In this document: positions 43,201 through 60,190 of the stretch, piece by piece
How the letters are laid out: every line of letters starts with the position of its first letter
Position numbering within the stretch: position 1 is the stretch's first letter
Source: Loktanella sp. SALINAS62
Lineage (GTDB): Bacteria > Pseudomonadota > Alphaproteobacteria > Rhodobacterales > Rhodobacteraceae
NCBI RefSeq assembly: GCF_018263905.1
Contig: NZ_JAAFZU010000030.1
Location: 34,580 to 98,579 of the forward strand
DNA length: 64,000 bases
Reading direction: 5' to 3'
Program-made: the position numbers and the translations under genes
The notes under the pieces: model-generated
Told to the model about the DNA's origin: nothing
The model's input: only the letters and a program-made list of their open reading frames with translations
Database searches by the model: none

Positions 43201-45356
43201 GTTCCGCCGATCGCGGCGGTCACTTTGGTATCGACAATGCCCATCGCCACCGCCACGCCGACGCCTGTGCCGCCATCGGTGGTCACCGTTCCGTCCGCCG
43301 TCGCGGTAATGCTTTCCGTCGCGGTGGCGTCAAGGATCACGTCACCCACAGATGCGATGGTACCGCTGCCCGACACGCTGACGACGGTATCGGACCGATA
43401 GTCCGACACCACGACCGCCCCTGCAAAGCTGACGGAATTGCCCTCTGGCGTGGTCGCCCCGTCGTTCTGCGTGCTCGCATCCTTGTCGGAATCCGCCAAA
43501 CGCTGTTCGGATTCATTTTTCTCGTCGCCGGTGCTTTCAACTGCGCCGCCTGCCGTCGACGTGGATTTTGTGGTGATGTCGCTGTCCAGCGTGGCAGTCA
43601 GATCGACACTGTCGGGCGTATCGACATTGCCCAAGATCGACGCGCTGTCGCTCATTGACACACGTGTCGTGGCCTGCACTGAACTGACCGCAACCGTTGC
43701 ACCGGCGCTGCCCGCCGTGCCGTCCGCATTGCTGACCACCAGCAGGTTGGTGGCAGCGTTCAATGCGACCGCGCCATCGGCGCTGATGATTGAAGCACCC
43801 AACATGTCAATGGTCGATGTTGCCAGAATCACGGTGACCGAAACGGCTGCATCCGATGTTTCGTCGTCGTCCGTGCCATCGGCCTTGTCCGTCGCGTCGA
43901 TGTCCAGCGTTACGGTCGTCCGCGCCGTCACATCGCCCGTCGCCGTCACCGTTCCACCATCCAGTCCGATCGTGGCCGACGGCAATGCCACCACCAGCGC
44001 CCCACCCAGCGGACCGATGATCAACGGATCGGGCGTGAACGTCGCGGACGCCGACGCTGTCAGCGTCACGGCGCCACCAGTTGCGACGACGCTGCCAGCG
44101 ATGTCGATATCGGCGACAGGCGCCGCCACGTAAACGCCGGGAATCAGGTTAGTCGGGTCGATGGCATAGCTGTCTTCGGTCGCCACCGCGTTGAACGTTA
44201 CGCTGCTGCCCGTCACAGATGCGCCCGACGCGACCGCGATGCTTTCGGCATTCACCGTGATCGCGCCTGCGGTCACGGTCCCGGTAAACAGGACGGAATC
44301 GCTGCCACTTTCGCCGTTGATGGTCAGACTGGCAGGACCCAGATCCAGGTTTCCGACGGACAAAAGATCGCCCTGCGCCTGCGCAATACCATCGGCAGAG
44401 GGCAGACCCAGATCATCGCCCATGTTGATGGTCAGGCTGGCCGTTGGTGTCGACAGCGCCAAGCTTTCGAACGTGGGGATCGCATCGTTCGAGGTCACGA
44501 CCACAGTGCCCCCCGATTGCGACAGTGTGGCGTCGTCCGACACTTCGACACCCATCAAACCCATGTCGAACGTGTAATTCTCCACCGTCATGTCGGTGGC
44601 GTCGATTGGTTCCAGACCGTCAAACTGCAGCACGACGCCATCGCGGTCGATAGTGCCCGACGTGCCGCCGGTGGCCGCGTAATGCACGCTGTCAAACGTG
44701 CCACCGTCCAACACCATAGAGTCGTAGCCGCCGTCGCCACCATCGATCGTGCCGCTCAGCACGCCGGTCGCACTGACGATGAAAGTATCCTCGTTGTCGG
44801 CGGCGCCCTTTGCGGTTTCGACGTTGACGAAACGCACGCCTGCGACGGTTCCGGTATCGCGCCCGTCGATGGTCCATGTCGTGTCACTTGACGGACCGGC
44901 TATCGTGTCATCACCCCCTGCACCGTCGAAACGCACGCTCACGTCCTGCATCGCAGCCGTCACGCTTAGGGTCAGGCGGTCGTTGTGCGCGGTGCCGGTG
45001 ATGATAATTTCTGTTGTCTCGGCGGCTGCACGCTCGCCCACGATTTCGCCGGTTTCATCGTCGTAGACACGGTAAGCTGTGGCCGTTTCGTCGTATTCAA
45101 GGGTGTAGCTGGCCCCACCGTCCCCAGCCATATCGACCGACAGCGGCATCAGATCGGCAGACAGCAAAAAGCGTGGTTCCATCGCCTCGAGCTTGACAGC
45201 CGAGACCATGACCGGGGTCGTCACCTTCGGCGAAGGCGCGACATTTGCGAATGTTCGGTGGCGCGTACGACCGCCAAACCATGACAACGGAGACGTTCGA
45301 CCGCGTGGCTTGCGATTCTCTAGTCCAAACGCCTTGGCGCCAAATGGAAAAGCCAT
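16233..45356 (-). CDS. Giant LEPR-XLL-type repeat protein with RTX repeats and C-terminal zincin motif (9,707 aa)
   Basis: One uninterrupted 29.1-kb frame. Order: basic N-terminus, no classical signal peptide, LEAMEPRFLLSAD (56-68); Gly/Ala/Thr-rich solenoid-like repeats (about 300-4250) with Lys/Asp-rich linkers; an insert with HGL...GD motifs (about 4255-4820); more repeats; dockerin/EF-hand-like loops DWNHDGAYTQDD, DTNGDGNINFTD, DINGDGVVDLHD (about 6430-6800); Calx-beta-like stretch (about 6735-7335); RTX nonapeptides such as GGSGDDTI and GGAGDDLI (about 8010-8930); two LamG-like folds (about 9040-9400); Ser/Thr linker; matrixin-like HEIGHLLGFEH (9555-9565) with Met-turn IMSG; Pro-rich 140-residue tail. 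ATG preceded by AAGGGGGG. A secreted or surface calcium-dependent adhesin/matrix protein is inferred. It follows, on the same strand, the operon for SecA-like, HlyD, M50 and SapC proteins that I infer exports it. Confidence 0.9.
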   Translation of the reverse strand: MAFPFGAKAFGLENRKPRGRTSPLSWFGGRTRHRTFANVAPSPKVTTPVMVSAVKLEAMEPRFLLSADLMPLSVDMAGDGGASYTLEYDETATAYRVYDDETGEIVGERAAAETTEIIITGTAHNDRLTLSVTAAMQDVSVRFDGAGGDDTIAGPSSDTTWTIDGRDTGTVAGVRFVNVETAKGAADNEDTFIVSATGVLSGTIDGGDGGYDSMVLDGGTFDSVHYAATGGTSGTIDRDGVVLQFDGLEPIDATDMTVENYTFDMGLMGVEVSDDATLSQSGGTVVVTSNDAIPTFESLALSTPTASLTINMGDDLGLPSADGIAQAQGDLLSVGNLDLGPASLTINGESGSDSVLFTGTVTAGAITVNAESIAVASGASVTGSSVTFNAVATEDSYAIDPTNLIPGVYVAAPVADIDIAGSVVATGGAVTLTASASATFTPDPLIIGPLGGALVVALPSATIGLDGGTVTATGDVTARTTVTLDIDATDKADGTDDDETSDAAVSVTVILATSTIDMLGASIISADGAVALNAATNLLVVSNADGTAGSAGATVAVSSVQATTRVSMSDSASILGNVDTPDSVDLTATLDSDITTKSTSTAGGAVESTGDEKNESEQRLADSDKDASTQNDGATTPEGNSVSFAGAVVVSDYRSDTVVSVSGSGTIASVGDVILDATATESITATADGTVTTDGGTGVGVAVAMGIVDTKVTAAIGGTVIFTDTDKVSVLSTLNADSSYTLTATSGGGGSAESGFQGSLAISIVSTDVQAIIENGANLNLNGADVLASASSATKTDTAALKGEGTVATSSVGVGAGVALYVGSHLSTAALLGNANFTGATGDLTLIATGKHSDTTTAQAGAAGTGTTVGGAVAISVVNNDTVTDFGDPGSALDLDGDVAAATTHTGTSATLADGTAAGGTTAVGAAIGLAFVNNNGSSTLRRDLTTTGSFEMSALTKAESKAEAKASAAGAEKEAAPDAADGGADGQRDKQIDYANTRGDAGGKTTDVSADEQASANSSGDGGASGGGNVSVAGALALNISSSMAVAQIDGVTLRAADVSLTTTADMNATSDADGSAAAGSGTSVGIAVGITVAEMRNVAQITDGASVTQTGSGDLVLSATMNDADDSQHSFGAAATAGASGGDTGVAGSFALLIVDSDTAASMDGASSVDLGGANAAMTATSDSVDTTTASANQDDGGTLGVGAGIAIGVTDHDTTATVANGSDLTNGNDISLTASGTHVATTTAESGAESSGTTVGGAVAVAVDNRLTQARIGTGDDDLDAAGVLTLSATHSGSSTTKAGSDATGADAAIGASIALGFVTDKASAELERDASVAALTMTAIADGASIVTSKASAAGASSEADAEDGTDANADKQKNDKVALANQKNKGADVNPDEGNNDTSAKDGSNNSVGVAAALALNVSKAEASATLIDRAVTGDVTLTTSNNMDAKADASGIASEGAQTTSVGVAVAINVANMRNVAGLQGTSSVTGGLTASATMTDKDGNSQHDFGATAVSGASGGDVGAAGSFALGIIDSDTRASIDGDGRISATDEDVSLSAASVSENTVSATASATSGKTGVGVSIAINVNNAVTEAEIADGAILTGVANLALVANGSYENTTFASGGGAGKQSETGVGGGVAVAVVDNMTTARIGISPSALAISGDLSADVVHHGRATTTADGTAEASTAIGAAIAIGLVDDTGRATLERDLTATGGISLSARVDGASETISKASAKGAKDKNTDGDNDASTGETADTQKTQNTAMANNASDTGKGTSTSASKNGKGVSIAAALAVNVSSSTAEAVLADGLTVSSGGAGLSLITSNNMDATARGEGDSATTGTGTSVGVGVAINVADMTNRARIGAGSTITATGLTLQSTMKDVGGDPQHNFKAEATSGASGGKIGIAGSFALSVANATTEAIIGDSAGADSTITLTGGAVVLEAVSDETTTVQATSAAIGKARQGTGVGAGIALTVGFNETRTTVDEGTTLNGAVSALTLRAQSSDTLTTNSEAGAAGNTAIGGSVAVAYVENVTEAVLGSGGGTLVLTGGALLIAADHTATITTTADGEAAGGNVGVGASVALNIGDDETDAFIDRSLTGASTIDVHGKGVIESSATSKASATGQKKKKTNSDGSESAEDSNTSDEEAAENTTFAQEKGGAKADKAPTETGASTVGEADTKAQDEGGKGVEDQASVKSGGTKVAATVAVNYLNAEIDARVGDDVTLVGSGAVTVKAESKVTARAIGIATATDISANTGVAAAVALNISLLDTTARVGQGASLTGSDVSVLAVHPTDDDANTYQVRALSGAVSGGTGIGGSIAVNYVDSTMKAEVAGARATGDTVDPWDETVLNATTGNVTVKAESHTILQNISGGAALSTKGGTGVGIAISVNIFNTMDTKAIVGNNADLDAVGTVDVTANSTIKPLEETLVLIERQEVDVGDVTEIQVNEVSVDVAFTNFAAGVAASNGGTAVGGSSSVNVMLINTEASVGSNTTVDAGGDITVNATDMTTLFTGAGGIGLSAGGSGVGVGIDVNVITRDTLAQVGSGAALNSSGGAVSVNATADDDFTSFAATFGASSGGNAVALSVAVMVAITDTRALVLAGTDDDNTTSLSAGTDVTVKADGDFDLKLISGGVAFGVGGAGVGIASSVLVHDDDVEADVRDYTSIVTGGPIGLSVRAVSTDDILNIVAAAGVSGSSVGIGGSVLVSVLTEDTKALIGDHVLVDATAAANNPGVIVDADSTTEILAVSGAIALSSSSAVGAGVNVHTVTKTTEAKIGGSSEIIADGNIIVNAQSTEDIKTFSVAAAGGASVGVGVAADVYVLTLTTTASIGAQSDVFARGSVLVQAVDETEADLLVGGAAVGGSAGVGGGAGVAVINKTTTATIDTGADVTGLGLDTVIARDGTFTVDYDTGSTKSGIDEDAIKLDSQTPDREAFEIGTPAGSDLDKDIADTPDKSNQSADGDDLEGDPGLARERVALAGTEIVRGVAVSASSKDDVESLAFGFAASGSGAVGIGAAVNIVDVTTTAQVKDGGSINSFAPDGNATAADTEQSVLVAAASDFNHTGVGVGLALSGAGAGAPGVNVSVINQDTQALLGESVADANDRRTVRVAAADDVIVRANAEAKFLIVAAGVAASGTFAIGGGVGVVSIDNTTTASVGNDTVIDAGGDVLVSANDDSDMTMIAGGAGVGIGGAGVGASVGIFVVNKSTIASIGDRAQVDAGGNGTGYADILTGDMNDDTGAFFTGEAHGVIVQATSSETFLTVQAAGAAGGYAGVAGAVGATIVDSDTAAWIGRDAQINQFSANYLTVGNDAGPNQGVWVGAANRTSLTAATVGVAGGLVGISGVVNYGMITNDVSAKIFAGADVNAQDIVVVGAVSDKLIRGFTVSGAGGALALGGAISVFAVGEAFSDTYENNNEAADNGGSNDTGSALDTGGGNAQDESGKTADNSAGEVDGQLGAVSGGAAGADANSADGRAASGLSGVDITSRSLSTATLNANLLLAAQDEPGVSAIVQGNAKIKTAGDVAVMAEEVIETKFITTSAQVGGAAVGAAITVLNINSNVRGRLGGETVAGGIVTVGGSGTRDIGATSVGVQAGGVAIGAGVNVVTDNSKQLAEVSDGGKVDGASQLNVTAANDQDLDITSYSVTLGGSVAAGFNFSIVKLNNTDSFDGTNQADTMARIGDGAQIGQTTSVGSVAVLATSEIDANVVTYAGAGGGLAAVGVNVADLKITPDVVAEIGNNVAINATGNVGVTAISSHDGTANMFGITAGTLAGVGVSISIVETSPDTTAQIGTGFTGSSNGLSVEAMHNVPTVLVMDPDRGAHAIALAAGGGLVGGQGAVPLAKANARVAATIMNGGGFNAGTGLVTVSADVRNAATADAQTFALGALGLGASVAIAEASGSAKSLMDGVLTGGASLTVSANGRNRADTMANAASLGLVAGTAPISRATVMPVLEAKIAGNVTVGGAVIVKATSDGDAFANSDSKSGGIGGVGFVESTATVSPDIDAVIQSGTISGSSISILTTHNAQDGNTSKARAVAEAAGVSGIGVQINKSEAYANANLQSWVGNQAVFNAPNAAVKIEANGRNQAEALTDGLNVGILGAVGITDSFAYANGTAKAYFADRTTATGNVDFTFGSLDMDAVTQDTASARSNAAGGGVISVTTNDSEAEANSTVKAWIGSEISLLASGNITIDALGTPEADAYTKGTSGGAINVALSKSKTTVNPTVSAEIRAGVVLETTGNVSVKAKADRQSSDVPSYRIDSADGTKNTLVVDRHGLETGDLIEYAATGSTVPGLSGQVDLDDGLGLRDRSYNVIRFSTDVIAFGNRFDGSQIDPLTEQITFSNPHNYLSGDKVVLHEVNSAGEDTAQPDILNSTTLYVLVVDDFTIKLVDSAAKTSASYVENNFNDFDSTDVSDNYINVGSNGFTVGQAVTYVAPPKSNFLTVQVDVTAAQLADDTDTREQTTNNNRIFFVDLDPNSDDEGDLIAHGFSNSDLVVYTAVATTTTKLIDDPDPDASPAAKIIETTVTQDPIGGLESGRIYRVANVDDAGSSLQLKTSDTVSTDVYYVRTPSGGDSILRTDGADWADNGFQVGDTLTIAGSNGNNGSSYTIAAVNGDTLVLNQTLSQITRVDQQMTIGSANVATAGDPDLRVTVTLSSGTWADAGITSGTVRFKAGGLVYTGSVVLNSGTTLRLDTVYVSGAGTYADAVVERTSAETDTIDTPIVALDADKSDDRIHSLALLEDAPISGLTDGQTYYVHSKDAGDANRIRLAAAPGGGVITLNSFNVAGQDHYIGSQAIDLDQTGSNNFYDLRIDVTANTGQTDDVINAPGGLSLAVVAPQTGDGQSSSTSKGSGGGIVSGTVNTADMTSTPTVSANVLATLVSAGGDLTIESDAFTKTTAYASNGSGGFVAVGKATVNHNSGNGDLTSTASIGDNTQLIAGGNLSVKSLADNESSISSKATTGGFVGVANAKAYSNTDFTSDVSVGSNAVIFVGGFAQFVAEGSTTGKATANAKGVGFGGDGSADAGSRANDGSGAFTTIAGSALIEASELSLEAYLNDVDLRTDASGRGGGFYSEGDGEATTAFDADSSVTIGGSARLTGWEGVDILIENSGVIAKSYSYSRSSGLFGKVDSDSATTVTVDAIVTGAALANITAGPRDEANGNLAFYNYAQEPASDAQRLAFLVVAENNLGTNITETAVVSKRSLASGGASGNDPSITTTKPIVFDSDVTILSGRSPDLLVEKQVTVDSNAIITNAEVITIDDSAAQGDSFKAIQSGSIEGDKIYVNDIQNPGPGDVVFDSDSIAGSGGTWTFRNSLQRITILNESDKTIQINDINVFGEKPPVVVLAPTNQAAGNRTLTFNIVTDVAPTLVSIRNTGNSDIELNGDINNPIGVTTIENTQGSILGTQSRDTSVVRSQIINVDAAQDAGRYGQRIVIDLVDSVGTPEAFSFTTAQVGALSNQIFLGLGNKFFDGQLVRYDTDSGSAALGGLTDGDLYYIRLSADGNAATLSLVEGGTAVDLTGGGTLTDGHTLTAVEVITVDAGNDAYLDVRALLRQDLANVEKADGAYLVNIDRVAAGNTADVLLQATWLQDGLGGGGGVIVKHPQNNTAPADNTYEVFFDDIDQKANKTDRGAFAEGISSTPETTFDFRGIDPVTQLRTLAGLQAGAVSGTGNIVVAAANSAPGDVRINILALTETDTTGNATGAGHVSALTNGWIAMTELTGDFRVGTITSTDDDVLLYAPRSFVDAQGVNNQADADIAGFNITLIAASGFVNPDADDIQGTDGEVETPTIGASGFGGGIGYASNFLEIDVDRSSVTLAGTGVLRAFDNTATTSDGIFIDEVIGDLHIHTVHSISDVSLRTTGGSIVDARNDDAANIIGLSIDLDANGVGSTIGEVGDDLEIDSRNGLTPVGLEVDSDDVALEADGSIWLTEVAEELRLVLAHSYVGDIRLTVREATGSTSTSENFELIESGSARFAEGNSIAPGNHADADRIIAEGLVYAELGAVELRVGDDVTLDDNAGIIAGEGIIIRGDYGDRDVNIGTTMVLRGVIMAGAILDVAGQRNGGTPIGTSSPNLTRAPLRTDDDFEARLTQVFGGSDVDFFQFGDTSGVAGTTVRGMDGYIKLGSKTRVHGGATPDVANDVDDGEDRFAVYYLQDTATQTSPQTGPNAVDAKGNLAPGHEVVAEHTLTLDGQSDLDFYSVYSLGSQGDERNYIINVLDTGAEDDGADQLSIFGNDGTNDGKTDDIFLLRAANFLPGETADRPGYVAILHGQIDGYQDVIYNNEESTKVQRIAYDTGINGRLVVEGRGGNDAFFTDDTTVITTLDGGADDDTFQIGQIFGEKRNVSEGNLLAQDVFPELVATSRGWLSAGSSSPLLAQGGTGNDEFRVYSNQSELRLEGDDDNDLFIIRAFALAATIDFDWNHDGAYTQDDLDAGVVVLSELRDLQTGGLTADAAINALMATSVFGLAGPDDDYRAALRASLRTVTSGGTDYLFDTNGDGNINFTDLLLTPDDVTDDEIVLDDKGVAVPQIGLGFSIGQAPDIRAGGGQDEVRYNVNAPVSVDGGTGFDKLVILGTEFADDIVITAQGIFGAGLNVRYSTMEVVEVDGLEGDDEFFIRSTAFGVAYRVIGGLGSDTINVAGDVTEDIVTRELEGVSGAVDHLVTSDDTLYDGLLIDGFNYNVATEGEGLVVIDEGPDGFTAVREGGPDAVDSYTVRLAQALAEGEVVYVTVSAARSPEEERNDTLINPAPLPNGPGDTFWLSTVAGAAVPSDFTRNAGFDINGDGVVDLHDVIENRAVVLRFDHTNYDQAQTVSLYAVDDTRAEGDRVVVMQHSVISNSAAYDAIDVANVEVQVKDNDTPGINIRQVDSTLVEDGRTILIEGDETTGLTDIIQIDLAKKPAGTVVVELTLNDLSDRALRLVNIDSNPDLKILLTAERYINGDGDLVVGTATFTDLTWDTPINIGLEARDDAVREDPQTATIGFARGIDTTDPDFVFPNLRSGSGLLPVTVLDNETAGSLVQQSGGSTVLIPDGSDTKDYTLRLTKQPTSDVNVAVLTDGLADVVAIGDKMATYETIGGVRATQKFAGAIVFEEIGGKLTLTRGPGADFGDFVADGWITGDLIRIAGTDVSGADVNGDYAIESVTTQTITLTTTDADASPTATQVDTVILSLLNERDVWTGYAKLATETDPLTGDQSTRLIRTDATGNQLDAAVQGWLREGFLEGQRVRITNVGTDDFVDAKIAIIRGDNDTQDDKLQFTLDPMSDDAFSDAGWLSNGSATMVEVNRIAVVATFTDANFYDEQKITLKADIYYEVPSTRDGVKIFAVKAHRLSDLQGPLAVEGGPAGADRSLTNGIKLAGERDDFLIAIAAQAPESQQIDVLNIFNDSSLADGTGVLDDTTLRGFGMADDLVFPDVSGPIFGEGTEGAVPQDLVYAGGLSFGKVNFGVSGVGTDGADSTIEVFNFMMGEGNDYLDVLGTLNPAEFVSAQNEFTFINGWSDGNYNFLYTQNPEFKNAQVISREGFNWKAEGFLVGQTVTIEGVAGQSWTIIGIEDAIEYFEADGTTPIINPETDEPYRDPSDNSLLILSGNDFPAITGEAKLVATDKPVLEEVTVSISGGLITRSAGNWAESGFLAGHLLQIGIGDNRSELRIVDISDDGLILTVKGDDLNDLPATLTDFFWVQGAHGGLTVLHGGGNLVVDTSGSFDLRTVDGENIATRLDGRSFADNRFAVGQLVQLAGESHTRQILEIRDATASDYGIADGFTSWGRDAQLVLSDPLAGGAIDWGTGGAVDADLSLATATVTTTLVENVDIRVDRLVRTDGTDWTGFVAGDFIEIAGQPGQFEITAINGNVLTVGNAALDPCDDGPVTVTLTRTDITTSTGASIGGDHFVVTGGAGPDSPLVIYGDTSQDGMWYSGEPSNPLGIELGEKPFDPFPELPDAENEDDEWIFPVANWFKNFGNDVIDASGLFADVTYGADGLPRDADGKVVTVGLVAYGGPGNDLLIGSQVGDHLAGGSGDDTIIGQRGVDHIYGDSGVNVNIFTRALDIATSDNSPEPTAIKNFPRTESTFSPVASKVLDHLTAGRDTIIGDGSGATGFDMTPDIIFGDHGVVTQNVQDPNLPDVGAPAGVQILQKIQTTLLESVLVIEAVELQNGGDDILIAGGMEDILIGGAGHDIIDGGAGDDLIFGDNVTLTRMGPAGDTNLTDDIASLRYQTLAGTLMYSRSDRATSAGYGEEVAGEDTSGVLMVSLNEKDKPIARDYRDPNGPSWWNEYTIDYALQHTMEMAAGRVGAGSFGNDYIAGGQGNDQIFGQLGNDVIQGDGTVQGTILDAAEIQALIDGVDVDTRRVGAARDPQGDHDPIGPLTVIAVDIVATDLTQDGEDYIEGGGGCDVIFGGLGQDDLIGGSSSFFSLTDRNMRPDGKDMIFGGTGVQIDRNDDDLPGDPAAQHNRHAHDADVIVADNGNIVRLVGVNGTDVQSLTGGAQDYLHFAYDTDAYNADEKIIVRGVSLLDYTPAGPDLQLDGWNNDVFGNDEVHGETGDDVIYLGGGADIGFGDADNDDIYGNWGSDWISGGTGIDGIVGDDGRIMTSRNTALERGQDYGSAFAESLYGVFKLLATDPDSRTSQGNVINEFIYSPGRVQTETINVAGELLKSVDLTPYNVDPDSALQADPNAHNPMFADDVIFGGLGDDFIHGGSGDDAIAGGEALTESYVQLYLDDGDAIPDGLVRTDFSRPWNPERGNILNFGADTDPWNDPQNIRTRLGEFLLYDEYDPRRVILFADDGTVWKGDDNPLDYKQFFLNLADNEGRTELGYIDFENNGTPIGEMVARESDGDDRIFGDVGNDWLVGGTGRDHIYGGFGNDLMNGDDVMGGANPNGANYDAYSGRNDSTDTHVSYEDRIYGGAGLDILIGNTGGDRLIDWVGEFNSYIVPFAPFGIATVSRQVPPALFDFLWAQAASDGVDMTRTADTGQSNSRSRYSNVAGFMGDPDGELGLVTQRDKGLWQDQTGAPSDPQAGNIPGGARDVLRTADFNDRKGNGFATDTGAFTPTGGRMAVTADDGASTATAVMIVDRYLPRYYEVQTTFNLDKPTGGWKANGYIIFDYYSDQDFKFAGINVSTNKIEMGYVDAAGWHYTVQSKKPVRIKPGANYDVLVAVNDNNVTLVVEGVNWFTHDYDPRYDIAGEIIPMNAGMVGIAMDGSRGTFDNFKVQILPPEWTLDETDDFEGVVDELTQTVQSGDWAQQGGTLAGIAQGLQPAINLIDLGSQIAANSYLELAVDIDGSGQGGLIFDSYDAENYKFVALDAAFGRIIVGHATSDDGIVIDHSQNVVLTGKTGHNLQVTFKGAGMEIRVDGVKLGDYAFNAVTVDGQFGVIVLDGMVAFDNLRVATNDDAFADTMRLGGATLQTSAPYDDAEAVSVDQSETSLATSDQTGSTDATVSDSQVTTTRSLTTDDVAAIFDAALADWAESGLVTEAELAAISASFAVVDLTGNTLASATQDGVIQIDVDAAGVGWYLDPDPETDDEFEGTVQGVDLLSVLRHEIGHLLGFEHNELTIMSGEIDAGERIAIVEPAPTDTVEEPSTPVSEPVDDKTPTKGGGKGNRNAALSDGLVFDPMTGSLVPADEAELLFARYEMAAPSETAKIIQIAAFGSVAAVAAQKGRANQNVVAAKQGDPQSPPQSLGSKLKGWLRIA
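16600..16960 (-). other. Matrixin-like zincin module at the C-terminus of the giant protein
   Basis: Encodes residues about 9465-9585: helix TTDDVAAIFDAALADW, strands with IQIDVDAAGVGWY, then VLRHEIGHLLGFEH (zinc ligands His9555, His9559, His9565; catalytic Glu9556) and the Met-turn ELTIMSGE. These are HExxHxxGxxH metzincin features, but the domain is short compared with serralysins. Whether it cleaves the giant protein itself, neighbours or nothing is unknown. Confidence 0.7.
18560..21330 (-). repeat. RTX calcium-binding nonapeptide blocks
   Basis: Encodes at least eight clusters of GGxGxDxhx repeats, for example GGPGNDLLIG, GGSGDDTIIG, GGAGHDIIDGGAGDDLIFG, GGQGNDQIFG, GGLGDDFIHGGSGDDAIAG and GGFGNDLMNG, separated by long inserts. 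Family knowledge: such repeats fold into beta-rolls on binding Ca2+ outside the cell and are typical of exported proteins. Confidence 0.85.
30900..32590 (-). other. Insert domain with repeated HGL/GD motifs within the giant protein
   Basis: About 560 residues interrupt the solenoid-like repeats. Repeated short motifs appear: DRHGLETGDLIEY, PHNYLSGDKVVL, SNGFTVGQAVTYV, AHGFSNSDLVVY, and TDGADWADNGFQVGDTLTI. The last type (W...GF..GD.I.I.G) recurs far downstream at 21800-24000, for example GNWAESGFLAGHLLQI and TDWTGFVAGDFIEI. Function unknown. Confidence 0.6.
33000..38750 (-). repeat. Tandem short repeats (about 55-60 aa) of the giant protein
   Basis: Divergent tandem units of about 165-180 bp encode the pattern VxAxSxxxxxxxxGGxAxGxxxGVGxxxxVxxxxxxTxAxIGxxxxVxAxG, seen for instance as GVGIGGSVLVSVLTEDTKALIG and GVGVAADVYVLTLTTTASIG. 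The regular alternation of Gly/Ala cores and Thr/Asp turns suggests a beta-solenoid stalk. Confidence 0.75.
38750..43550 (-). repeat. Four higher-order repeats of about 1.15 kb with charged linkers
   Basis: Lys/Asp/Glu-rich linkers at about 43440-43550, 42300-42490, 41127-41320, 39990-40180 and 38750-39020 recur every 1.1-1.17 kb (about 385 aa). Between them the same sub-modules recur in order, for example SNNMDAKA/SNNMDATA, NVANMRN/NVADMTN, a QHDFGA/QHNFKA segment, SGASGG and GSFALxxxxxxT. This is a super-repeat above the short repeat. Confidence 0.75.
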
Positions 45357-45555: not shown

Positions 45556-46341
45556 CTATTCGAATGTCAGGGTGCAGCGGTGTCCACCGGGTAGCGCGCC
45601 GTCTGGATTGGGCAGTTCCAGTTGCACAACAAAAGTGCCACTGGCCGCGTCGAACACTTGATCGACGGACGTGACCGCGGCGCTGTATGCGCCGCCAACA
45701 GGCGCGGCAGGCAGAATGGTCGCGTCTTGGCCCAGCGTAATTTGTCCAAACAGCGATATCGGCACAAAGGCTTCGATCCGCAACGGGTCCATCTGAACGA
45801 TCCGAACAAGGTAATCGCCCTGCCCGATGAATTCACCCGCGGACAGATTGCGTTCTGTCACCACTCCCGACAGCGGGCTGACGATCTTGCGCTGGCCCAA
45901 CGCCGCTTCGGCGCGGGCCAACTCCTTGATCGCCAGATCCCGGTTCAATTCCGCCTGCGCCAAAAGACTTTGTGACGCGATCAGCTCTGCCTCTACCTGA
46001 TCCAGTTGCTCCTCTGTCGCCACCCCGCGTTCGCGCAATGCCTTGATCCGTGCGTAGCGCCGGTCGACCATTTCAAGCTGCCGGGTCTGGGATTCGATCA
46101 CGGAGGTATTCGTCGCCCGCAGCCGCAGCAGATCCACCGTGCCTGCTTCGATCTTGTCGTTCAGTCGCGCCAGTGTCTGCCCCGCGATCACGTCGTCGCC
46201 ACGTTCGACCGGGACGCTTTCCAGCAGGCCCGCGACCGGGCTTCCGACCTCGACGACGGCGGCAGGGTCCATCAGGCAATCCACGTCCGCCGCCGCGACG
46301 GCAGAGGGCCAAAGCATCGCCAAAGCTAAAACCGTTCTCAT
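45556..46341 (-). CDS. Periplasmic HlyD/MFP-type adaptor protein
   Basis: A 261-residue membrane-fusion-protein family member with a signal peptide (MRTVLALAMLWPSAVAAA-D). It has a lipoyl-like half (VGSPVAGLLESVPVERGDDVIAGQTLARLND), a helical hairpin (about 75-150, coiled-coil heptads LRLRATNTSVIESQTRQLEMV...), the second lipoyl half (KIVSPLSGVVTERNLSAGEFI) and a beta-barrel domain. Start taken at ATG 46341, which overlaps the SecA-like gene's TGA (ATGA) and has GGGAGG 7 bases upstream. Last gene before the giant gene. In the proposed export machine it would bridge the periplasm. Confidence 0.85.
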   Translation of the reverse strand: MRTVLALAMLWPSAVAAADVDCLMDPAAVVEVGSPVAGLLESVPVERGDDVIAGQTLARLNDKIEAGTVDLLRLRATNTSVIESQTRQLEMVDRRYARIKALRERGVATEEQLDQVEAELIASQSLLAQAELNRDLAIKELARAEAALGQRKIVSPLSGVVTERNLSAGEFIGQGDYLVRIVQMDPLRIEAFVPISLFGQITLGQDATILPAAPVGGAYSAAVTSVDQVFDAASGTFVVQLELPNPDGALPGGHRCTLTFE

Positions 46342-48314
46342 CCCAAACCTCCCGTGAATGACAGCATCTTGTGTAGTCGTTTGTCCTGACGCACCAGATC
46401 CTTGCGCGCCCGCGCATGGGCGCGCTCTGCCGTGCGCTGGGCCCGGTCGAACAGTTTCAACCGCACACCCTGCGAAATCAGCGGAAGCTGGCAAAAGCTC
46501 TTGGACAGCGGCGCCCGGATCACGTTCAGCAAATCGTCCTCCATCGACAGATAAGTCGACACGCTGCCCGGCTCGCCCCGGCGACCGGCGCGCCCGGCCA
46601 GTTGCCGGTCGATCCGTCCGGCATCGTGCCGTTCGGTCAGGATCACATGTAACCCGCCTGCCGCGACGACTTGTGGCGACAGGCCGATATCCACACCGCG
46701 GCCCGCCATGTTTGTGGCCACCGTGACGCGACCGGCCTGTCCGGCTTCGGCGATGATTTCAGCTTCTTCGCTGTCGTTCGTGGCATTCAGCACGCGGTGC
46801 GCGATCCCCGCCGCCGTCAGCGCAGCACTGACCTGTTCTGACGCGCCCACCGACCGCGTGCCGATCAGTACTGGCCGTCCGCGCAGTGTTTCGGCACGCA
46901 CACTTGCCACCACGCGCGCCCACTTTGCCACCGACGTGCGCAGCACAACGGGCCTGCGAAACCGCAACCGCGACCGTTGGTTGGGCGGGATGCGCTGCAC
47001 GTCCAGCCGGAACACCGACCACAACTCTCGCCGGGCCTCACGCGCGGTTCCGGTCATCCCCGAAAGCCGGCGATAACGACGAAACAGGCGCTGGTAGGTC
47101 ATGCGCGCCATCGACAGGTTTTGCGGCGTGACTTCGACCCCTTCTTTGGCTTCGACCAACTGATGCAGCCCGTCCGACCAGCTTCGGTCGGGTTGCACCC
47201 GCCCGGTGTATTCATCGACGATCTGCACCTTGCCGTCGGTCACAAGATACTGGTCGCCACGGGTAAAGAAATTCAGCGCCGACATGGCCTGCCGCAAGGC
47301 TTCTTCACGCTTGATCGCGGAACGCCACGACGGCCCCAGCCGTCCCGCCCGCGCAGCAATAAAAGCCCGCCCGGCGTCCTTTAATTCGACACGGCGTTCA
47401 TCGGGATAAAGCTTATAATGGCTGCCCCGCGTCATTTCCCTGGCCAGCCGCAAGGCCGTTTCGGCCCATACTTTTTCGTCCTCGGGATCGCTCTGACGAG
47501 AGATGATAAGCGGGGTGCGCGCCTCGTCGACCAGCACAGAATCCGCCTCGTCCACGATGGCGAAATGCAGGCCCCGCATCACCAGCTTGCTTTCAAGCGC
47601 TGCATCGCCCGTCAATCGGCGCAGCCTGCGTCGCAGATCGCTCTTGTCGTCGCCAAAAGCCATCTGGTCGCGCAGGTAATCGAATGCGATTTCGGTGTTG
47701 GACGCATAGACGATATTGCACGAATAGGCGTCCTGCCGTTCATGCGGCTTCATATCTTCGGTCAGCAACGCATGGGTCAGGCCCAAGCGGTCATAGATCG
47801 GTGCAAGTGTCTGCAAATCCCGCGCGGCCAAGTAGCCATTGACAGTGATCACATGGACCGGCAGCCCCGACATCGCGGCAGTGGCCGCTGCAAGGGCGGC
47901 GGTAATCGTCTTGCCCTCGCCTGTGTCCATCTCGGCCAGCGCACCGCGCAGCATCGCCAGCCCACCGCGCAACTGCACGGGATGGTGCCGCAAACCCAGT
48001 TCGCGGCCACACACCTCGCGGACCAACGCCAGCGCGCGCGTGATTGACCGCCGCGTCAATCCATTGCGGCGCAGCACATTGCGCACCTGCGCGATTTCAA
48101 CGCTCAGCGCCTCTTCAGACAGGCGTTCCAGTCTGCCAGCCTTGCGCAGGATCGCGGACAGCGCCCACCGATCCCGCACCGGCCGCGCCAGATGGCGCAG
48201 CCAAAGTCCGCTGCCCGCAACAATCGTTTCGGCACGGGCGATCCAGTCGTCACCCGGATCTTCCCTCTCGGGGTAGAAATCCAGCCGGACGTCGCGCGGG
48301 GCAGCGGCGGTCAT
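46338..48314 (-). CDS. SecA-like translocation ATPase, short form
   Basis: A 658-residue SecA homologue. Visible: GLRHHPVQLRGG then Walker A AEMDTGEGKT (127-136), VHVITVNGYLAARD, Walker B/DEAD IVDEADSVLVDEARTPLIIS (253-272), VDEYTGR (366-372), LSGMTGTA (417-424), TNMAGRGVDI (534-543) and GRAGRRGEPG (574-583), then SMEDDL. Housekeeping SecA is about 900 residues; here only about 68 residues follow SMED, ending inside the long scaffold helix. The helical wing, the two-helix finger and the C-terminal zinc tail are absent. The nucleotide-binding motor and preprotein cross-linking region are intact. Overlaps the adaptor gene (ATGA) and lies 9 bp after the SapC gene. I infer a dedicated ATPase for the giant protein. 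Confidence 0.9.
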   Translation of the reverse strand: MTAAAPRDVRLDFYPEREDPGDDWIARAETIVAGSGLWLRHLARPVRDRWALSAILRKAGRLERLSEEALSVEIAQVRNVLRRNGLTRRSITRALALVREVCGRELGLRHHPVQLRGGLAMLRGALAEMDTGEGKTITAALAAATAAMSGLPVHVITVNGYLAARDLQTLAPIYDRLGLTHALLTEDMKPHERQDAYSCNIVYASNTEIAFDYLRDQMAFGDDKSDLRRRLRRLTGDAALESKLVMRGLHFAIVDEADSVLVDEARTPLIISRQSDPEDEKVWAETALRLAREMTRGSHYKLYPDERRVELKDAGRAFIAARAGRLGPSWRSAIKREEALRQAMSALNFFTRGDQYLVTDGKVQIVDEYTGRVQPDRSWSDGLHQLVEAKEGVEVTPQNLSMARMTYQRLFRRYRRLSGMTGTAREARRELWSVFRLDVQRIPPNQRSRLRFRRPVVLRTSVAKWARVVASVRAETLRGRPVLIGTRSVGASEQVSAALTAAGIAHRVLNATNDSEEAEIIAEAGQAGRVTVATNMAGRGVDIGLSPQVVAAGGLHVILTERHDAGRIDRQLAGRAGRRGEPGSVSTYLSMEDDLLNVIRAPLSKSFCQLPLISQGVRLKLFDRAQRTAERAHARARKDLVRQDKRLHKMLSFTGGLG

Positions 48315-48323
48315 TGCTCAGAC

Positions 48324-49109
48324 CTAAATCTTGGCCTTTGCATCCTTCTGCTCCTTTGCGGGCGGCGCCGTGTCTGCATCGCCCATGTCGGGCACGGCCA
48401 TCCGGCCCACCATGCTATTGAAATGGCGAAGCGAATGCAGGTGCAGGTAGGCGCATTCCAATTCGTCGGTATTGAACATCTGGGCCAATGTGTCGGCGTC
48501 GATCTTCTTGAACCGCTCACGGTCAATGACTTGAAAGCCCGACAGCGAACGTGCCTCGCCCCCGACCAGATTGAATCGCGCCTGCATCGGCTGCAACAGG
48601 TCCAGCGACTTGAGCCGTTTGCAAAAGGCCTGCGTGCGCCGGAAATGCGCCTGATATTCCTGCAGGAAGCTCAGCACGTTTTTAAGGTACTGGGTCTGCT
48701 CTCCGTCGCTGTCGAACAACCGTTCGCCGCGACCATCCGTATTCACACCTTCGAAACCTTCGTCGATGTTCAGGATGAATTGCTTGCCGGTGCTGTCGGT
48801 CGAAAACACAAAGGGATAACGCCGCACAAAGGCCGGGATATAGCCGCCGGTCCAGTGGCCGTCATCGTCCACGAACAGGTTCTCGTCTTCACGGCTGCCC
48901 AGAATGGCCGAAGGCATCACGACGTCTTCGTTACCGGCAAAAACAATCGGGTAATGCGCCGCCGCTGCCGAAAACTCGACCGCGGTCAGCGGGACCGAAT
49001 TGACGTTTTTGGCATAGGAATAGGTCTCACCCGCCTTTAGCGAGGTATTCGCGTGCTTTTCCTGACTAACGGGTGTCGCCTTGGTGTAGAACAAGAGTTG
49101 CGTAGCCAT
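48324..49109 (-). CDS. SapC-family protein
   Basis: A 261-residue protein matching the SapC family: VPLTAVEFSAAAAHYPIVFAG, PSAILGSREDENLFVDDDGHW, GYIPAFVRRYPFVF, and near the C-terminus a FQVIDRERFKKID segment. No signal peptide or membrane helix, so probably cytosolic. SapC was first linked to S-layer protein secretion in Campylobacter fetus; its mechanism is unknown. Start chosen at ATG 49109 (MATQLLFYTK) with AAAGGA 8 bases upstream rather than an in-frame TTG that overlaps the preceding gene. The C-terminal tail is Lys/Ala-rich (PPAKEQKDAKAKI). The SecA-like gene starts 9 bp downstream. Confidence 0.88.
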   Translation of the reverse strand: MATQLLFYTKATPVSQEKHANTSLKAGETYSYAKNVNSVPLTAVEFSAAAAHYPIVFAGNEDVVMPSAILGSREDENLFVDDDGHWTGGYIPAFVRRYPFVFSTDSTGKQFILNIDEGFEGVNTDGRGERLFDSDGEQTQYLKNVLSFLQEYQAHFRRTQAFCKRLKSLDLLQPMQARFNLVGGEARSLSGFQVIDRERFKKIDADTLAQMFNTDELECAYLHLHSLRHFNSMVGRMAVPDMGDADTAPPAKEQKDAKAKI

Positions 49110-49144
49110 CTTAAAGTTCCTTTCGGTTTCGAAGTTGGTTGTTG

Positions 49145-51305
49145 TCAAACGATGGGGGCAAAGACGCGCAGAAAGACCTGTGCTGCGCTGCGGTAAAGGC
49201 GGGCGGCCAAGGGCGAGGTGTCATGCGAAAAACGGACATGCACTCTGTCGCCATAAGCGGTGACGGTCTGCGGTTCGGTCAGCCTGAGTTCCATCTGATA
49301 GACCCCTTCAAGTGCGCGCCGTCCCTGTGGCGGGCTGGCCGGGTCCAAAAGGATCGGACCGCCACCTTCCTCTGACAGTGCAAGGCTTGGCAATTCGCGC
49401 GACAGCGATGCCGCGGCGCGCGAAACGGTCGCGGGATAAACATGTTCGGTGTCCTGTGCGAAACGGACCGACAGGCCTCTGGTTTCGCGGCGGACCAGTT
49501 CGGCGCGGGCTTCGGGGACGGCGATCCGGATCAGCGGGTCATTGAAATCCGCGACCACCGCAATCAACTGCCCGGCCTCGACGTAGCGACCTATCAGATC
49601 GGCCTCGTTGGTCAGAACCACGCGGCCGGGCGTGTCTGCGCGCAGGATCAAGGCGTCGACCCGTTGGTCCATCAAAGCGATTTCCGCGATGCCGGCGTCG
49701 CGTTCCTCTTTGATGATCTTGCTGGCGACCGGGTCGATGGACCGCTGCGCATCCAGCCTGCGGTCCAGTTCTGACAGCCGCGCTTCCAGCACCCGACGTT
49801 GCGAAGCGAGCAGCGGATCGTCGATTTCGACGAGGGGCGTGCCAGCGGCAACCGTATCGCCGGATTTGACCAGAACCGCGCGGATCACACCCGATGATGC
49901 GGCATTTACAAATGCCTCCGGGCGGGGAAACACCACGCCCTGCGCAAGCGTGTTATGCGGCACCGGCACAAACAGCAGCACCCCGGCAATCCCGCCAATG
50001 GTGGCGACTGTCAGCCCCAGCGCCCGGCCCCGTTTGCGCCGCAGCACCGGGCTGCTGAGAAGGAACCAGCCCATCTTGAGCACCGGCAGCAACAGCATCA
50101 AAAACACGGCCCAGATCGCCAACACGATCCCGATGATAAAGAACCGCGTCGCCACCAATGATACGATCGCAAAGGTGATGAACAGGCGGTAGAAATATGC
50201 AGCGATGGCATAGACCACGAACCAGCCCCGCTCGCCCCGCGCGGTCACAGGGCTTTCGGCCCATTTGATGCCGAACGCATAGCGCTGCACCAGATAGCCC
50301 AGATATTTGTTGGCGCGCTGGCCCAGGTTCGGGATCTCGATCAGGTCGCACAACACATAATAGCCGTCGAACCGCAGCAGGGGATTGCCGTTGAATAGCA
50401 GGGTCGAAACGCCGCCGATCAGCATGATGTTGAGCGCAAAGGCCCGCACCAGACCTTCTTCGGCATTGGCCCATACGATCATCGCAATTGCAGCCAGTGC
50501 GATTTCGACCAGGATGCCCGCTGCCCCGACAAAGGCCCGCTTCCACTTGCTTTCGCAATGCGATGCTGTCCGACGCGTCGACATAGGGCACCGGCATGAA
50601 GACAAGGAACATGATCCCGATCTCGTGGACGGCCCCACCCCACCGCTTGATTGCATAGGCATGGCCCAACTCATGCAGTGCCTTGATCAACGGATAGGAC
50701 ACGAGCAGCAAAAGCAGGTTTTCAGCCGACAGGACCCTGTCGATCGCGTTTTCGGTCAGCGGACCCGCATTGATCGCGAACAAGATGCCGCCGTAGATCA
50801 CCAATGCCAACCACAGCAACGCACCAAAGACCGACAGCAAGGGCCGGACCAGCGGCACGGTCGCGGTCAGGAAATCGTCGGGATCAAACACCGGGATGCG
50901 CAGTGCAAGCGGGTTCAGCATCGACTTGATCAGCTTCTGCCGCTCCATCTTGCGGCCACGGTCCGACATCTCGACGATATCCGGCGGCACGTCGCCGCGC
51001 AGGACATCCGCTGTGTGCAACCGCCCGACCAGCGACACCAGTTCGTCCTGTGTCACTGCATCCACATCAAACTGGTCAGACGCCAGCGTCCAGATCTGGT
51101 CCAGTGTCCGCGCCCCGTCCATCATCGCGATCAAACGGTAGGCTTCGGGTGTGAACCGGTGAAACCGGCCCGAACTGCGGTCCTGCAAGACGTACCAGAT
51201 GTCACCGCGAAAACTGTGGCGGTAGATACTGGCGTGGGTCCGCAGACGTGGCCGGTAGTTGGCGACGCGATACCACGCATTGCTGGACCACCGGCGCTGG
51301 CTCAT
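49145..51305 (-). pseudogene. PqqD-like / M50 site-2 protease / HlyD fusion protein, frameshifted
   Basis: Two adjoining frames together encode one protein of about 719 residues. N-terminal frame (51305 to about 50550): PqqD-like winged helix (about 30-105, FRGDIWYVLQDRSSGRFHRF...), membrane helices and the zinc-protease motif HELGH (211-215), ending PYVDASDSIALR. C-terminal frame (about 50550 to 49145): SKWKRAFVGAAGILVE, second M50 motif NGNPLLRFDGYYVL, more helices, then a HlyD-type periplasmic arm (VFPRPEAFVNAASSGVIRAVLVKSGDTV; coiled coil; RADTPGRVVL). Removing one A from the AAA at 50553-50551 (minus strand) gives ALRSKWKR and joins them. Could be real inactivation, a sequencing error or recoding. 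The ATG at 51305 overlaps the upstream gene's TGA. Confidence 0.85.
50551..50553 (-). other. Single-base frameshift site in the M50/HlyD gene
   Basis: Minus strand reads GCA TTG CGA AAG CAA GTG; family-like SKW(K/R)R needs CGA AGC AAG TGG, i.e. one A fewer in the AAA run. Both flanking frames show strong family similarity right up to this point, so the shift is local and probably recent or technical. Confidence 0.75.
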
Positions 51306-53173
51306 GGTGCCCACCGCCATGCGAACAGGCGCGCCCAGTCGACCAGCCGGTCAGTCAGCGAAGTAATGAGCAGCCGCTCGTCAATGTCAGTGCGCGCAAC
51401 ACCCTGCATGCCCGGTCGCAGATCGGCGGCCTCTGTCAGCAGGGTCGCCTCCACGCGGAACCAGTTCCTTCCGTCGCTTTGCTGCGCCAGCGGCGTGATT
51501 GTCTCGACGCGGTAATCCAACGGCGTCTCAGGCATGGCCGAAACCCGCAGGCTCCCTTTTTGTCCCACCACGATATCGTCCAGATCGCGCTCATCCACCT
51601 CTAGGATCACGCGAAATGCCCCCAGCGGCGAAATTCTGAAAAGCGTCTCACCGCGTTCAACAGAGCCCCCGATGGACTGCCGCAGGTCGCCTTCGACCAC
51701 GTAGCCATCGAATGGCGCGCGGATTTTTGTCCGGGCCAGTTGCTCTTCGCTTAGGGCCAGTTGTGCGTCGGACTGAGCCATCTGCGCGCGAATGATGTTG
51801 ACCTGCGCCATATCGCGTTCCGCCAGTGCTTGATCCAGCTCGCTTTGGCGTTGCTGCCGAGAGGTGACCAGCCGCAATTGATCCAGCGTCAGGTCCTTGT
51901 CGTCCAGCGTCGCCAAAAGCTCGGCTTCGGCCACCAGATCGCCCGCGCTGGCGTATTGGGCGGCCAGATAGCCGGTGAAAGGGGCGACAATCGTGCGCTG
52001 CACCTCGCCGGTGATCTGTGCGGGCGACTTGACCACATGGTCGGTCTTGGCGAAGGCAAAAAAGGCCACCACGGCCGCCAGCACCAGCGTCGCCAGTTTC
52101 GTGCCGAAATAGGACGGCCCAAGTGTCGCCTTCGTGAAACCGACGACGCTGTGCCAAACCTTTGTGGTCAGCCACCGGTCATTTGCCCGCCGGTCAGTCA
52201 AAACCGGCCCGATGACGCTGGCCACCGCGTCGCAGGACTCGATTTCGGACGATGTGAACCCCGCACCGGCGGGGCGTTCGAACAGCAATGCGCCGATGAT
52301 CTCGCCTTCGGCTTGCAATGGCACGGTCAGAACCGCACCGGCGCTATAAGTTTCGCCCAGATCCTTATGCGCGCGGACGACGCGAAAATCCCAATCGTCG
52401 GGCGCGGGCCACAGAATGACGGTCCGCTGATCGGCGGCTTCGTCCATGGCGATTGCGATGTCCCGCACAAGGTTCGCACGCTTGCTAAAGCCCGAGGTAT
52501 GCGACATGGCCGCAATCCGGTGTCGCTTGCGTTTGACAAAGCCGATGGAAACACGTTCGCAATCCAGTCGCCGCGCCAGATCGGTAACCAAAGCGTTACA
52601 GGCGGTCGCAAAGCGGGGTTGTTCCAGCACTGTGGCCAGCATGTCAAAGGCGACCGATACCCGCTCGCGCAGTTCACCGTCCTTGACCTCCTGCTCGCGC
52701 CGCAGGACCGCCTCGATCCAGCCGGTTCCCCATTGCAGTTGCCGGAAGAGTTGCGCCGTTGCGACGCCATCAAAAGCGCCAGACACGACGATGGCCCCGA
52801 AAAGCTGGCCGAACACGACAAGCGGCTGGGCCATGGTGCGTACAGGCTCGCCCTCGCCCAAAACGACCGCACTTCGGGTGTTCAGCGCCTGATCGGCGGC
52901 CTTTTGCATTGATGCCGTCCGCCGTTGTCCTGCAGGCCACGCCGCCACAGGTTGAAACGGACCGCTGTCGGGCACCTCTCCGATCACCAAAAGTCCCTGC
53001 GCATCCTTGCCCAACTGACGGCATTGCAGGGCGAGCCACGTTTGCAAGAACTGTTCGGCATCGGCCGCAGATTGAAACTGCGCCCAAAGTGTCTGGTCGA
53101 GCATCGCGTAGCTGACAGGGGCGCCCAAAGACGCCGGGTCGAGCGCTGAAAGAGTGCGTGCCTCTTCCGTCAC
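51302..53173 (-). CDS. GAF-domain/HlyD-type membrane adaptor protein
   Basis: A 623-residue protein. The N-terminal cytosolic half (about 1-340) contains a GAF-like sensor region (about 170-335: RFATACNALVTDLARRLDCERVSIGFV ... GAVLTVPLQAEGEIIGALLFERP). One membrane helix (about 367-385, ATLVLAAVVAFFAFA) follows, then a periplasmic HlyD arm: VVKSPAQITGEVQRTIVAPFTGYL, a coiled coil (about 425-475), RTKIRAPFDGYVVEGDLRQSIG and a beta-barrel. The start is GTG at 53173 with GAGGA 8 bases upstream. First gene of the export operon, overlapping the M50 gene (ATGA). A cytosolic GAF on an MFP-type adaptor suggests export gated by a small ligand or redox state; that is inference. Confidence 0.85.
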   Translation of the reverse strand: MTEEARTLSALDPASLGAPVSYAMLDQTLWAQFQSAADAEQFLQTWLALQCRQLGKDAQGLLVIGEVPDSGPFQPVAAWPAGQRRTASMQKAADQALNTRSAVVLGEGEPVRTMAQPLVVFGQLFGAIVVSGAFDGVATAQLFRQLQWGTGWIEAVLRREQEVKDGELRERVSVAFDMLATVLEQPRFATACNALVTDLARRLDCERVSIGFVKRKRHRIAAMSHTSGFSKRANLVRDIAIAMDEAADQRTVILWPAPDDWDFRVVRAHKDLGETYSAGAVLTVPLQAEGEIIGALLFERPAGAGFTSSEIESCDAVASVIGPVLTDRRANDRWLTTKVWHSVVGFTKATLGPSYFGTKLATLVLAAVVAFFAFAKTDHVVKSPAQITGEVQRTIVAPFTGYLAAQYASAGDLVAEAELLATLDDKDLTLDQLRLVTSRQQRQSELDQALAERDMAQVNIIRAQMAQSDAQLALSEEQLARTKIRAPFDGYVVEGDLRQSIGGSVERGETLFRISPLGAFRVILEVDERDLDDIVVGQKGSLRVSAMPETPLDYRVETITPLAQQSDGRNWFRVEATLLTEAADLRPGMQGVARTDIDERLLITSLTDRLVDWARLFAWRWAP

Positions 53174-53721: not shown

Positions 53722-54465
53722 ATGACCAGATTGATGACATGCACCGCACTCGCCGCAGTGTTCGCGGTCCCGGCTTTTGCACAGGACGACGCGCCTGAGG
53801 TATCTTATTGCGAACAGGCGTTCGCCCCTGCAGATGCGAACAGCGATAACATGATCGACAGCGAAGAGGCTATCGCCGCCCGCGAACGTCAGTTCGCAGA
53901 CATCGACGTGAATGCTAACGGTGCAATCACGCGCGATGAATGGACGACCTGCACACAGAGCGCCACCGACGGGCGTACCCTGACCGCCGCCCCAGAAGAT
54001 CTGTTTCCCCAACTGGATACTGACAGCAGCGACGACATTTCACCGTCAGAACTATTTAATAACACCCGAAATGCCTACGAGGATGTCTGGGTCAAAAACC
54101 ACACGCGCGACGAATGGGACGATCCGATGATCGCGATGCCCTCTGGCATCACGAATGAGCAAATGCGCGAGTGGACGTCCGAAGAATATTTCGCGCAAGT
54201 CGGCAACACTTACGCCATGACAGATACGGATGACGACGGTTCCGTCAGCCGCGATGAATTCATGGACCGCGCCCAAACCCACATGATGGACATCTCCAAG
54301 GTCAACTCCCGCTTCGACGAGATGGACGCCGATGCAGATGGCAGCGTGACAAATGAAGAATTCAACAACGCAGCGCAGGCGCGCGTGGATGATGCGATGC
54401 GCGACATGGACATCTCTGGCGAAGACGGGGTTCCGGTCGTGATCTGGTTTGCGACGTCGATGTAA
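53722..54465 (+). CDS. Periplasmic EF-hand calcium-binding protein
   Basis: A 247-residue protein with signal peptide (MTRLMTCTALAAVFAVPAFA-Q) and at least five EF-hand-like loops: DANSDNMIDSEE, DVNANGAITRDE, DTDSSDDISPSE, DTDDDGSVSRDE and DADADGSVTNEE. Two cysteines (C30 and C77) could form a disulfide. GAGGAGG box upstream of the ATG. Divergent from the export operon of the giant protein, which itself carries many Ca2+ motifs; a role in periplasmic Ca2+ handling is inferred. Preceded by an EcfG-type stress promoter. Confidence 0.85.
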   Translation: MTRLMTCTALAAVFAVPAFAQDDAPEVSYCEQAFAPADANSDNMIDSEEAIAARERQFADIDVNANGAITRDEWTTCTQSATDGRTLTAAPEDLFPQLDTDSSDDISPSELFNNTRNAYEDVWVKNHTRDEWDDPMIAMPSGITNEQMREWTSEEYFAQVGNTYAMTDTDDDGSVSRDEFMDRAQTHMMDISKVNSRFDEMDADADGSVTNEEFNNAAQARVDDAMRDMDISGEDGVPVVIWFATSM

Positions 54466-58971: not shown

Positions 58972-58996
58972 GTCGTCAGCCTCCGGACGAAGGTGC

Positions 58997-59018
58997 GAGA
59001 GGGCGCAGCCGCCCTCTC
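58997..59018. other. Intercistronic stem-loop between binding-protein and permease genes
   Basis: Perfect 8-bp stem (58997-59004 with 59011-59018, GAGAGGGC/GCCCTCTC) around a 6-nt loop, 7 bp after the binding-protein stop. No T-run follows in the direction of transcription, so it likely protects the upstream message and raises binding-protein levels over membrane subunits. Confidence 0.65.
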
Positions 59019-59024
59019 TTTCGA

Positions 59025-60047: not shown

Positions 60048-60091
60048 GTTGGGTCTCCCTTCCCTGAACCTGTGCGCCTCCTCCCGAGGAT

Positions 60092-60105
60092 TGCACAGCT
60101 GTGCA
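60092..60105. promoter_or_regulatory. Palindromic LacI-family operator, proximal to the uptake operon
   Basis: TGCACAGCTGTGCA, a perfect 14-bp palindrome with central CpG-free core, 45 bp upstream of the binding-protein ATG. A near-identical site lies at 60191. Confidence 0.7.
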
Positions 60106-60190
60106 TCAGGCTGGTCCCGACTCGGGTCACTTGTCAAATAAAAAGTTTCGGCGTGACTATTTTACTTTAATCCGGCAGATTTCTTCTTGC

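Follow-up and report, generated by a model that had tools for sequence, protein, structure and literature searches.

An operon adjacent to a giant protein gene

The 64,000-nucleotide stretch of the genome of Loktanella sp. SALINAS62 analyzed here (contig NZ_JAAFZU010000030.1, positions 34,580 to 98,579; hereafter the window) carries a five-gene operon, and we lean toward regarding this operon as the dedicated exporter of the LEPR-XLL giant protein encoded next to it. In the mechanism that we favor, the PqqD-like domain of the M50-HlyD protein, resembling a recognition element (RRE) of ribosomally synthesized and post-translationally modified peptides (RiPPs), would recruit the N-terminal leader of the giant, and the M50 protease would then cut the leader. 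The M50-HlyD protein would also serve as the inner-membrane channel or gate, the HlyD proteins together with a TolC protein encoded elsewhere in the genome would constitute the conduit, and the SecA-like ATPase, a component added for giants, would drive the long chain outward. Export itself is what we infer here, as are the binding, the cutting, the ATP-driven transport, the inner-membrane path, and TolC as the outer partner of this particular copy.

The operon is read on the minus strand from 53173 to 45556 in the order of GAF-HlyD, PqqD-M50-HlyD, SapC, SecA-like ATPase, and small HlyD, and the gene of the giant follows after a gap of 199 bases (Table 1). This layout agrees with an earlier note made from the sequence alone (hereafter the original prediction), in which five same-strand genes were placed directly upstream of a gene for 9,707 amino acids (aa). 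An ATGA overlap links the SecA-like gene to the HlyD gene, and that between the GAF-HlyD and M50 genes holds if the second ATG of the latter is its start.

Co-occurrence of the module and LEPR-XLL giants

An alignment of 15 M50-HlyD proteins was searched against genome contigs, a procedure blind to giants, and yielded 47 loci (L and G numbers below denote loci and genomes, respectively). Eight of them were cut by a contig end within or beside the module, and in two of these eight (L049 and L055) the one side still visible, 9-10 kb long, contained no giant. In all of the remaining 39, a very long open reading frame (ORF) adjoined the module. Thirty-five of these were recognized by a script that required an ORF of 1,500 aa or more (its length truncated at the edge of the locus) on the same strand next to the module, and four were counted by hand, namely L022, in which the LEPR frame is short, L047 and L048, in which the long ORF is on the opposite strand, and L052, which has a 2.2-kb gap. 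The LEPR-XLL model NF012209 was matched above its cut-off in 39 of the 45 genomes behind the module loci. The original prediction had named modules that are common without a nearby giant as the observation that would speak against it, and no such pattern was found among the 47 giant-blind loci.

We then counted both elements across the family to which the window belongs (345 genomes, 344 genera), with an M50 match of at least 354 bits taken as the module. Both were found in 29 genomes, the module only in 3, LEPR only in 6, and neither in 307 (Fisher test, 5.7e-33). In two of the module-only genomes, which appear identical to L053 and L054, the module is at a contig edge; in the third (G658), a very long ORF adjoins a module that is divergent. 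Among the LEPR-only genomes, G457, G475, G545, and G546 possess frames of 532-1,195 aa, with the motif at residue 307 in G545, and G512 and G770 possess weaker M50 matches. Neither element was found in G437, a genome of the same genus as the window. Out of the 44 LEPR frames in the family, 29 are located within 4 kb of the M50 gene and 35 on the same contig as that gene. For the order to which a Marinobacterium genome belongs, the corresponding counts over 235 genomes were 17, 4, 9, and 205 (5e-16), and the four module-only genomes comprised one with a contig end, two with a variant leader on the frame beside the module, and one with a masked stretch. Class-wide (387 genomes), M50 matches were found in 26 genomes at E <=1e-20 and in 2, both with LEPR, at E <=1e-100, and LEPR was found in 3; because the module is rare, the co-occurrence at this level tells us little. 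Altogether, the module and the giants co-occur far beyond chance, by statistics that, as well as those on length presented below, ignore shared ancestry.

The leader of the giant and its candidate reader

The giant is the only protein in the genome that matches NF012209 above the cut-off. The consensus of 72 distinct leaders is phi-[ED]-x-[LM]-E-P-R-x-L-L-S-A-D, and the leader is retained on proteins of widely differing length. The register of a hydrophobic residue, an acid, x, [LM], and E is common to the leader of the giants and that of daptides. Separately, the longest frame with a LEPR-XLL leader that we saw, 17,824 aa, is located beside a module (G495, contig C4, near 103 kb), and HEIGHLLGFEH, a metallopeptidase-like zinc motif, was spotted by eye near the C-terminus of the giant in the window (near 16400-17000).

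The N-terminal domain of the M50 protein is predicted to fold into three strands followed by three helices, and RRE and PqqD structures were among its best fold matches; as proteins with like domains (8hkr and GdmN) scored similarly to RREs, the likeness is at the level of fold only. PqqD was matched in 11 of the 15 aligned relatives. The match to the daptide intramembrane protease model NF041824 spans both PqqD and M50, and its scores, 162.9 bits for an intact relative (P0130) and 89.8 and 54.7 bits for the two M50 pieces of the window, are below the cut-off of 300 bits. On the basis of the structure model, we regard the N-terminal domain of the M50 protein as a predicted candidate for the reader that binds the leader of the giant.

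The original prediction had listed a PqqD/M50/HlyD gene and made no use of its PqqD part. The three domains are indeed present, but not in one frame: the N-terminal piece (P0006, 51320-49953) and the C-terminal piece (P0004, 50674-49145) overlap in different frames. Of the other 119 relatives listed, 115 are longer than 600 aa. The split between frames may have rendered this copy inactive, or it may be an error of the assembly.

The SecA-like ATPase and the length of the substrate

The SecA-like protein (P0002) retains the DEAD, preprotein-binding, and second nucleotide-binding domains, and Walker A, the DEAD box, and AGRG were recognized in it by eye. Among P0002 and its listed relatives, Walker A and the DEAD box are each present in 120 out of 120 sequences and TNMAGRG in 116. 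A profile scan found no SecA_SW match in P0002, and the sole SecA_SW match in the genome is the canonical secA gene on another contig. The alignment of P0002 covers residues 31-600 of a SecA of 778 residues, and P0002 therefore lacks the C-terminal part.

By following weaker M50 matches, we arrived at a sister class of modules. Their genes are those of OEP, a small HlyD, a GAF-like HlyD, and M50-HlyD, and they mostly lie beside long ORFs, several of which bear LEPRxLLD leaders. Nine loci of this class (L241, L242, L244, L245, L246, L248, L250, L258, and L259) have no SecA-like gene, by which we mean no blastp match to P0002 at 1e-5 within the stretch fetched. The same is true of modules of the LLSAD type (L270-L274, as well as L277, assigned by its LEPR frame). 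No ABC (ATP-binding cassette) protein was found among ten neighbors of sister modules scanned by Pfam. Neighborhoods were read in a minority of the genomes with weak M50 matches.

The two types of module differ in the length of the adjacent substrate. Among the modules with both the neighborhood and the adjacent substrate readable, the substrates are 6,441-17,824 aa in the SecA-type modules (n = 23) and 1,331-5,369 aa in the SecA-less modules (n = 10; p = 7e-6). This clean set excludes SecA-type frames more than 10 kb (G909 and G804) or more than 4 kb (G439, G505, G553, and G666) away from M50, two cases with SecA relics (G931 and G661), and three SecA-less cases that touch a contig end or are possibly frame-broken (G770, G793, and G970). 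With all of the rows set aside restored (31 versus 13), the medians are 9,602 and 2,927 aa, the ranges overlap, and p is again 7e-6. LEPR frames off the contig of, or far from, the module (e.g., G438, G817, G874, G896, G605, and G758) and the open-ended frame of G813 never entered the length sets. In two modules with substrates of 4,603 and 5,359 aa, the SecA-like protein matches SecA_DEAD only, weakly, and possesses none of the three ATPase motifs. A motif-bearing SecA-like protein is thus linked with long substrates. L275 (10238-12487) and L289 (10681-12483) carry SecA_DEAD-derived frames without Walker A, the DEAD box, or AGRG in modules with mid-length substrates, apparent relics of the motor.

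In the original prediction, the SecA-like motor replaced the ABC ATPase. Related modules whose leadered substrates measure 1,331-5,369 aa lack it in the stretch fetched, which overturns the replacement as a universal rule and weakens the SecA-like protein as a general substitute for ABC. Tentatively, and with somewhat less than even confidence, we propose a separate pathway for proteins of 1,300-17,800 residues with a RiPP-like N-terminal leader (LEPRxLL). An RRE-M50-HlyD gate in the inner membrane would recognize and cut the leader, and the proteins would leave in one step through HlyD/TolC with no ABC transporter; a SecA-derived motor would be added above approximately 6,000 residues and decay where substrates shorten. 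Within the wider family, two loci speak against any strict rule: L247 has M50 and HlyD genes without a long ORF, and L246 has four exporter genes and no long ORF among those listed in its 20 kb.

Alternative explanations

The alternative that survives best, albeit unlikely in our view, is a two-step route, in which the giant crosses SecYEG, the SecA-like protein acts as an accessory motor of the SecA2 type, and the M50/HlyD proteins only process the giant and carry it across the periplasm. In favor of such a route, the motor is a relative of SecA, and the SecA-less sister modules could use the housekeeping SecA. Nevertheless, the leader has no clear hydrophobic core of the Sec type (best 12-residue mean hydrophobicity of 1.38 against 1.98 for the start of HlyD, a rough measure), and the SecA domain missing from P0002 is the one that contacts SecY. 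Besides, HlyD/TolC systems usually operate in one step.

We consider it improbable that the giant is exported by a conventional type I system of the ABC kind, encoded at another place in the genome, and that the module has another task. RTX (repeats-in-toxin) giants are usually exported by ABC systems, and the original prediction had found neither an ABC exporter nor a TpsB protein. Its statement holds among the window ORFs scanned (the six operon frames plus ten further stretches, a subset of the window ORFs) but not for the genome, in which contig C3 carries an ABC/OEP pair and a PrtD-type ABC exporter (605 bits, above the family cut-off) was detected. What argues against this explanation is the adjacency of the module and the giant, together with their co-occurrence across genera. 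Likewise, the claimed absence of TolC stands for the module and the window ORFs scanned, but several OEP/TolC proteins (nine matches) are encoded elsewhere in the genome, and an OEP gene lies inside the sister loci.

A further alternative, with little probability left to it, assigns the module to something else, e.g., peptide maturation with efflux, and lets the giants merely travel with it on a mobile island. The M50 part resembles RiPP proteases, and horizontal transfer of the locus has been argued in the available text of PMC4452313. On the other hand, the adjacency persists whether the giant lies upstream or downstream of the module or on the other strand, the SecA-like protein tracks the length of the substrate, and the leader is conserved on proteins of very different length. 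Two-partner secretion of the giant as a TpsA protein through a TpsB porin is the least probable of all: the annotation of the giant of Methylobacterium extorquens includes a haemagglutinin repeat family in the part of PMC2680597 available, and one ShlB-like match (PF03865) was found in the genome, but this match is marginal (22 bits, barely at the cut-off) and on another contig (C78), and no TpsB gene was found beside the giant among the window ORFs scanned.

Relationship to known systems

The original prediction regarded the composition of the operon as undescribed, which we have to withdraw. Kamneva, Poudel and Ward (2015; PMC4452313) had already described a locus of GAF/HlyD, M50/HlyD, a secondary SecA_DEAD protein without SecA_SW, and HlyD/biotin_lipoyl, and proposed that SecA takes the place of the ABC ATPase and that M50 forms the pore; thus, the composition of the exporter is already known. 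The window has the same gene set and order, including SecA_DEAD without SecA_SW and the co-encoded M50/HlyD (frame-broken here), GAF/HlyD, and HlyD. In M. extorquens AM1, their locus is META1p2399-2402, with the order given as META1p2402-2399. The text available to us terms the broader biological role completely unknown and makes no mention of a giant substrate, a leader, LEPR-XLL, an RRE, or SapC. To that module, the present study adds the SecA-less sister modules and the link between SecA and length. The same strain encodes META1_2412, a protein of 15,831 residues with RTX and haemagglutinin domains according to the part of PMC2680597 available, ten locus numbers from the module, and we found no text joining the two. 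More generally, no text tying LEPR-XLL or giants to the module was found in the open-licence PMC literature (running text, exclusive of figures and supplements).

Compared with ABC/HlyD/TolC type I secretion, the module shares HlyD adaptors (three HlyD-type proteins in the operon) and, in the sister loci, OEP/TolC. It differs in having M50 and SecA-like proteins instead of an ABC exporter gene, and an N-terminal leader in contrast to the C-terminal signal of ABC type I substrates. An RTX-type substrate is a further likeness, as the original prediction read the giant of the window and as the available part of PMC2680597 describes that of M. extorquens. With the daptide protease MpaP and RRE-fused site-2 proteases (PMC10036551, consulted in part), the M50-HlyD protein shares an RRE N-terminal to M50, a leader of the hydrophobic-[ED]-x-[LM]-E type, and a match over PqqD plus M50; it is distinguished from MpaP by a score short of the NF041824 cut-off, the fusion to an HlyD half, and substrates of thousands of residues as opposed to small peptides. 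Similar to the accessory SecA2 (SecA2/SecY2 and SecA2-only), P0002 is a second SecA-type ATPase, presumably for few substrates; it differs in the lack of a SecA_SW match, in scores under the SecA2 family cut-offs, and in its HlyD and M50 neighbors. The LEPR-XLL family model NF012209, which the giant matches, names a motif, and the transport role is proposed here.

Other features of the window

GAF-HlyD is a conserved partner in 44 of the 47 related loci, missing in L050 and L055 and fragmented in L049. SapC is present in 35 of the 47, in 30 of these immediately after M50. In L256 (8999-12840), SapC lies directly 5' of a leadered long frame, and no exporter genes were found in the 12.8 kb read. 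Because SapC adjoins a leadered protein there with no exporter in view, it possibly takes part in handling the substrate, which is a guess. For the small HlyD, the ATG at 46341 is more likely the start than a TTG alternative giving 312 aa. Divergent from the operon, the plus strand encodes an EF-hand protein of 247 aa (53722-54465), possibly calcium-linked, and the window also encodes an ABC importer (55709-60137) similar to transporters of 2-aminoethylphosphonate.

Table 1. Coordinates of the operon, the giant gene, and their parts in the window.
Feature	Position	Strand	Basis
GAF-HlyD, 623 aa: GAF domain, one membrane segment (by eye), HlyD adaptor half	51302..53173	-	GAF and HlyD_D23/HlyD_3 matches
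PqqD(RRE)-M50-HlyD gene, in two frames in this assembly	49145..51320	-	Two overlapping ORFs, both aligning with single-frame relatives; PqqD, daptide-protease-like, and HlyD matches
N-terminal domain of the M50 protein, RRE-like, predicted to read the leader	50973..51302	-	Structure model, pLDDT (predicted local distance difference test) 86; fold matches
SapC, accessory	48324..49148	-	PF07277, 246.5 bits
SecA-like ATPase of 658 aa, lacking the wing/scaffold domain	46338..48314	-	SecA_DEAD, SecA_PP_bind, and P-loop_SecA matches
Small HlyD adaptor, 261 aa, signal-peptide-like start	45556..46341	-	HlyD match; N-terminus read by eye
Giant LEPR-XLL protein, 9,707 aa, predicted substrate	16233..45356	-	NF012209 match, 32.3 bits (cut-off, 17 bits)
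Leader of the giant: basic stretch with KLEAMEPRFLLSAD at its end, predicted export and cleavage signal	45153..45356	-	LEPR-XLL match; leader consensus

Significance

The export of single chains of 6,000-18,000 residues is poorly understood. The module had been described without a substrate in the text available of PMC4452313, and LEPR-XLL had been the name of a motif without an assigned role in the open-licence literature. Relative to that literature, the substrate, the predicted leader-reading RRE, and the link between the motor and length were not found in print. Joining the module and LEPR-XLL provides a testable signal in the leader, a reader for it in the RRE, a protease in M50, and, in length, a rationale for the SecA-like motor. 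The system proposed here would extend the leader recognition of small-peptide natural products to the export of bacterial proteins that rank among the largest.
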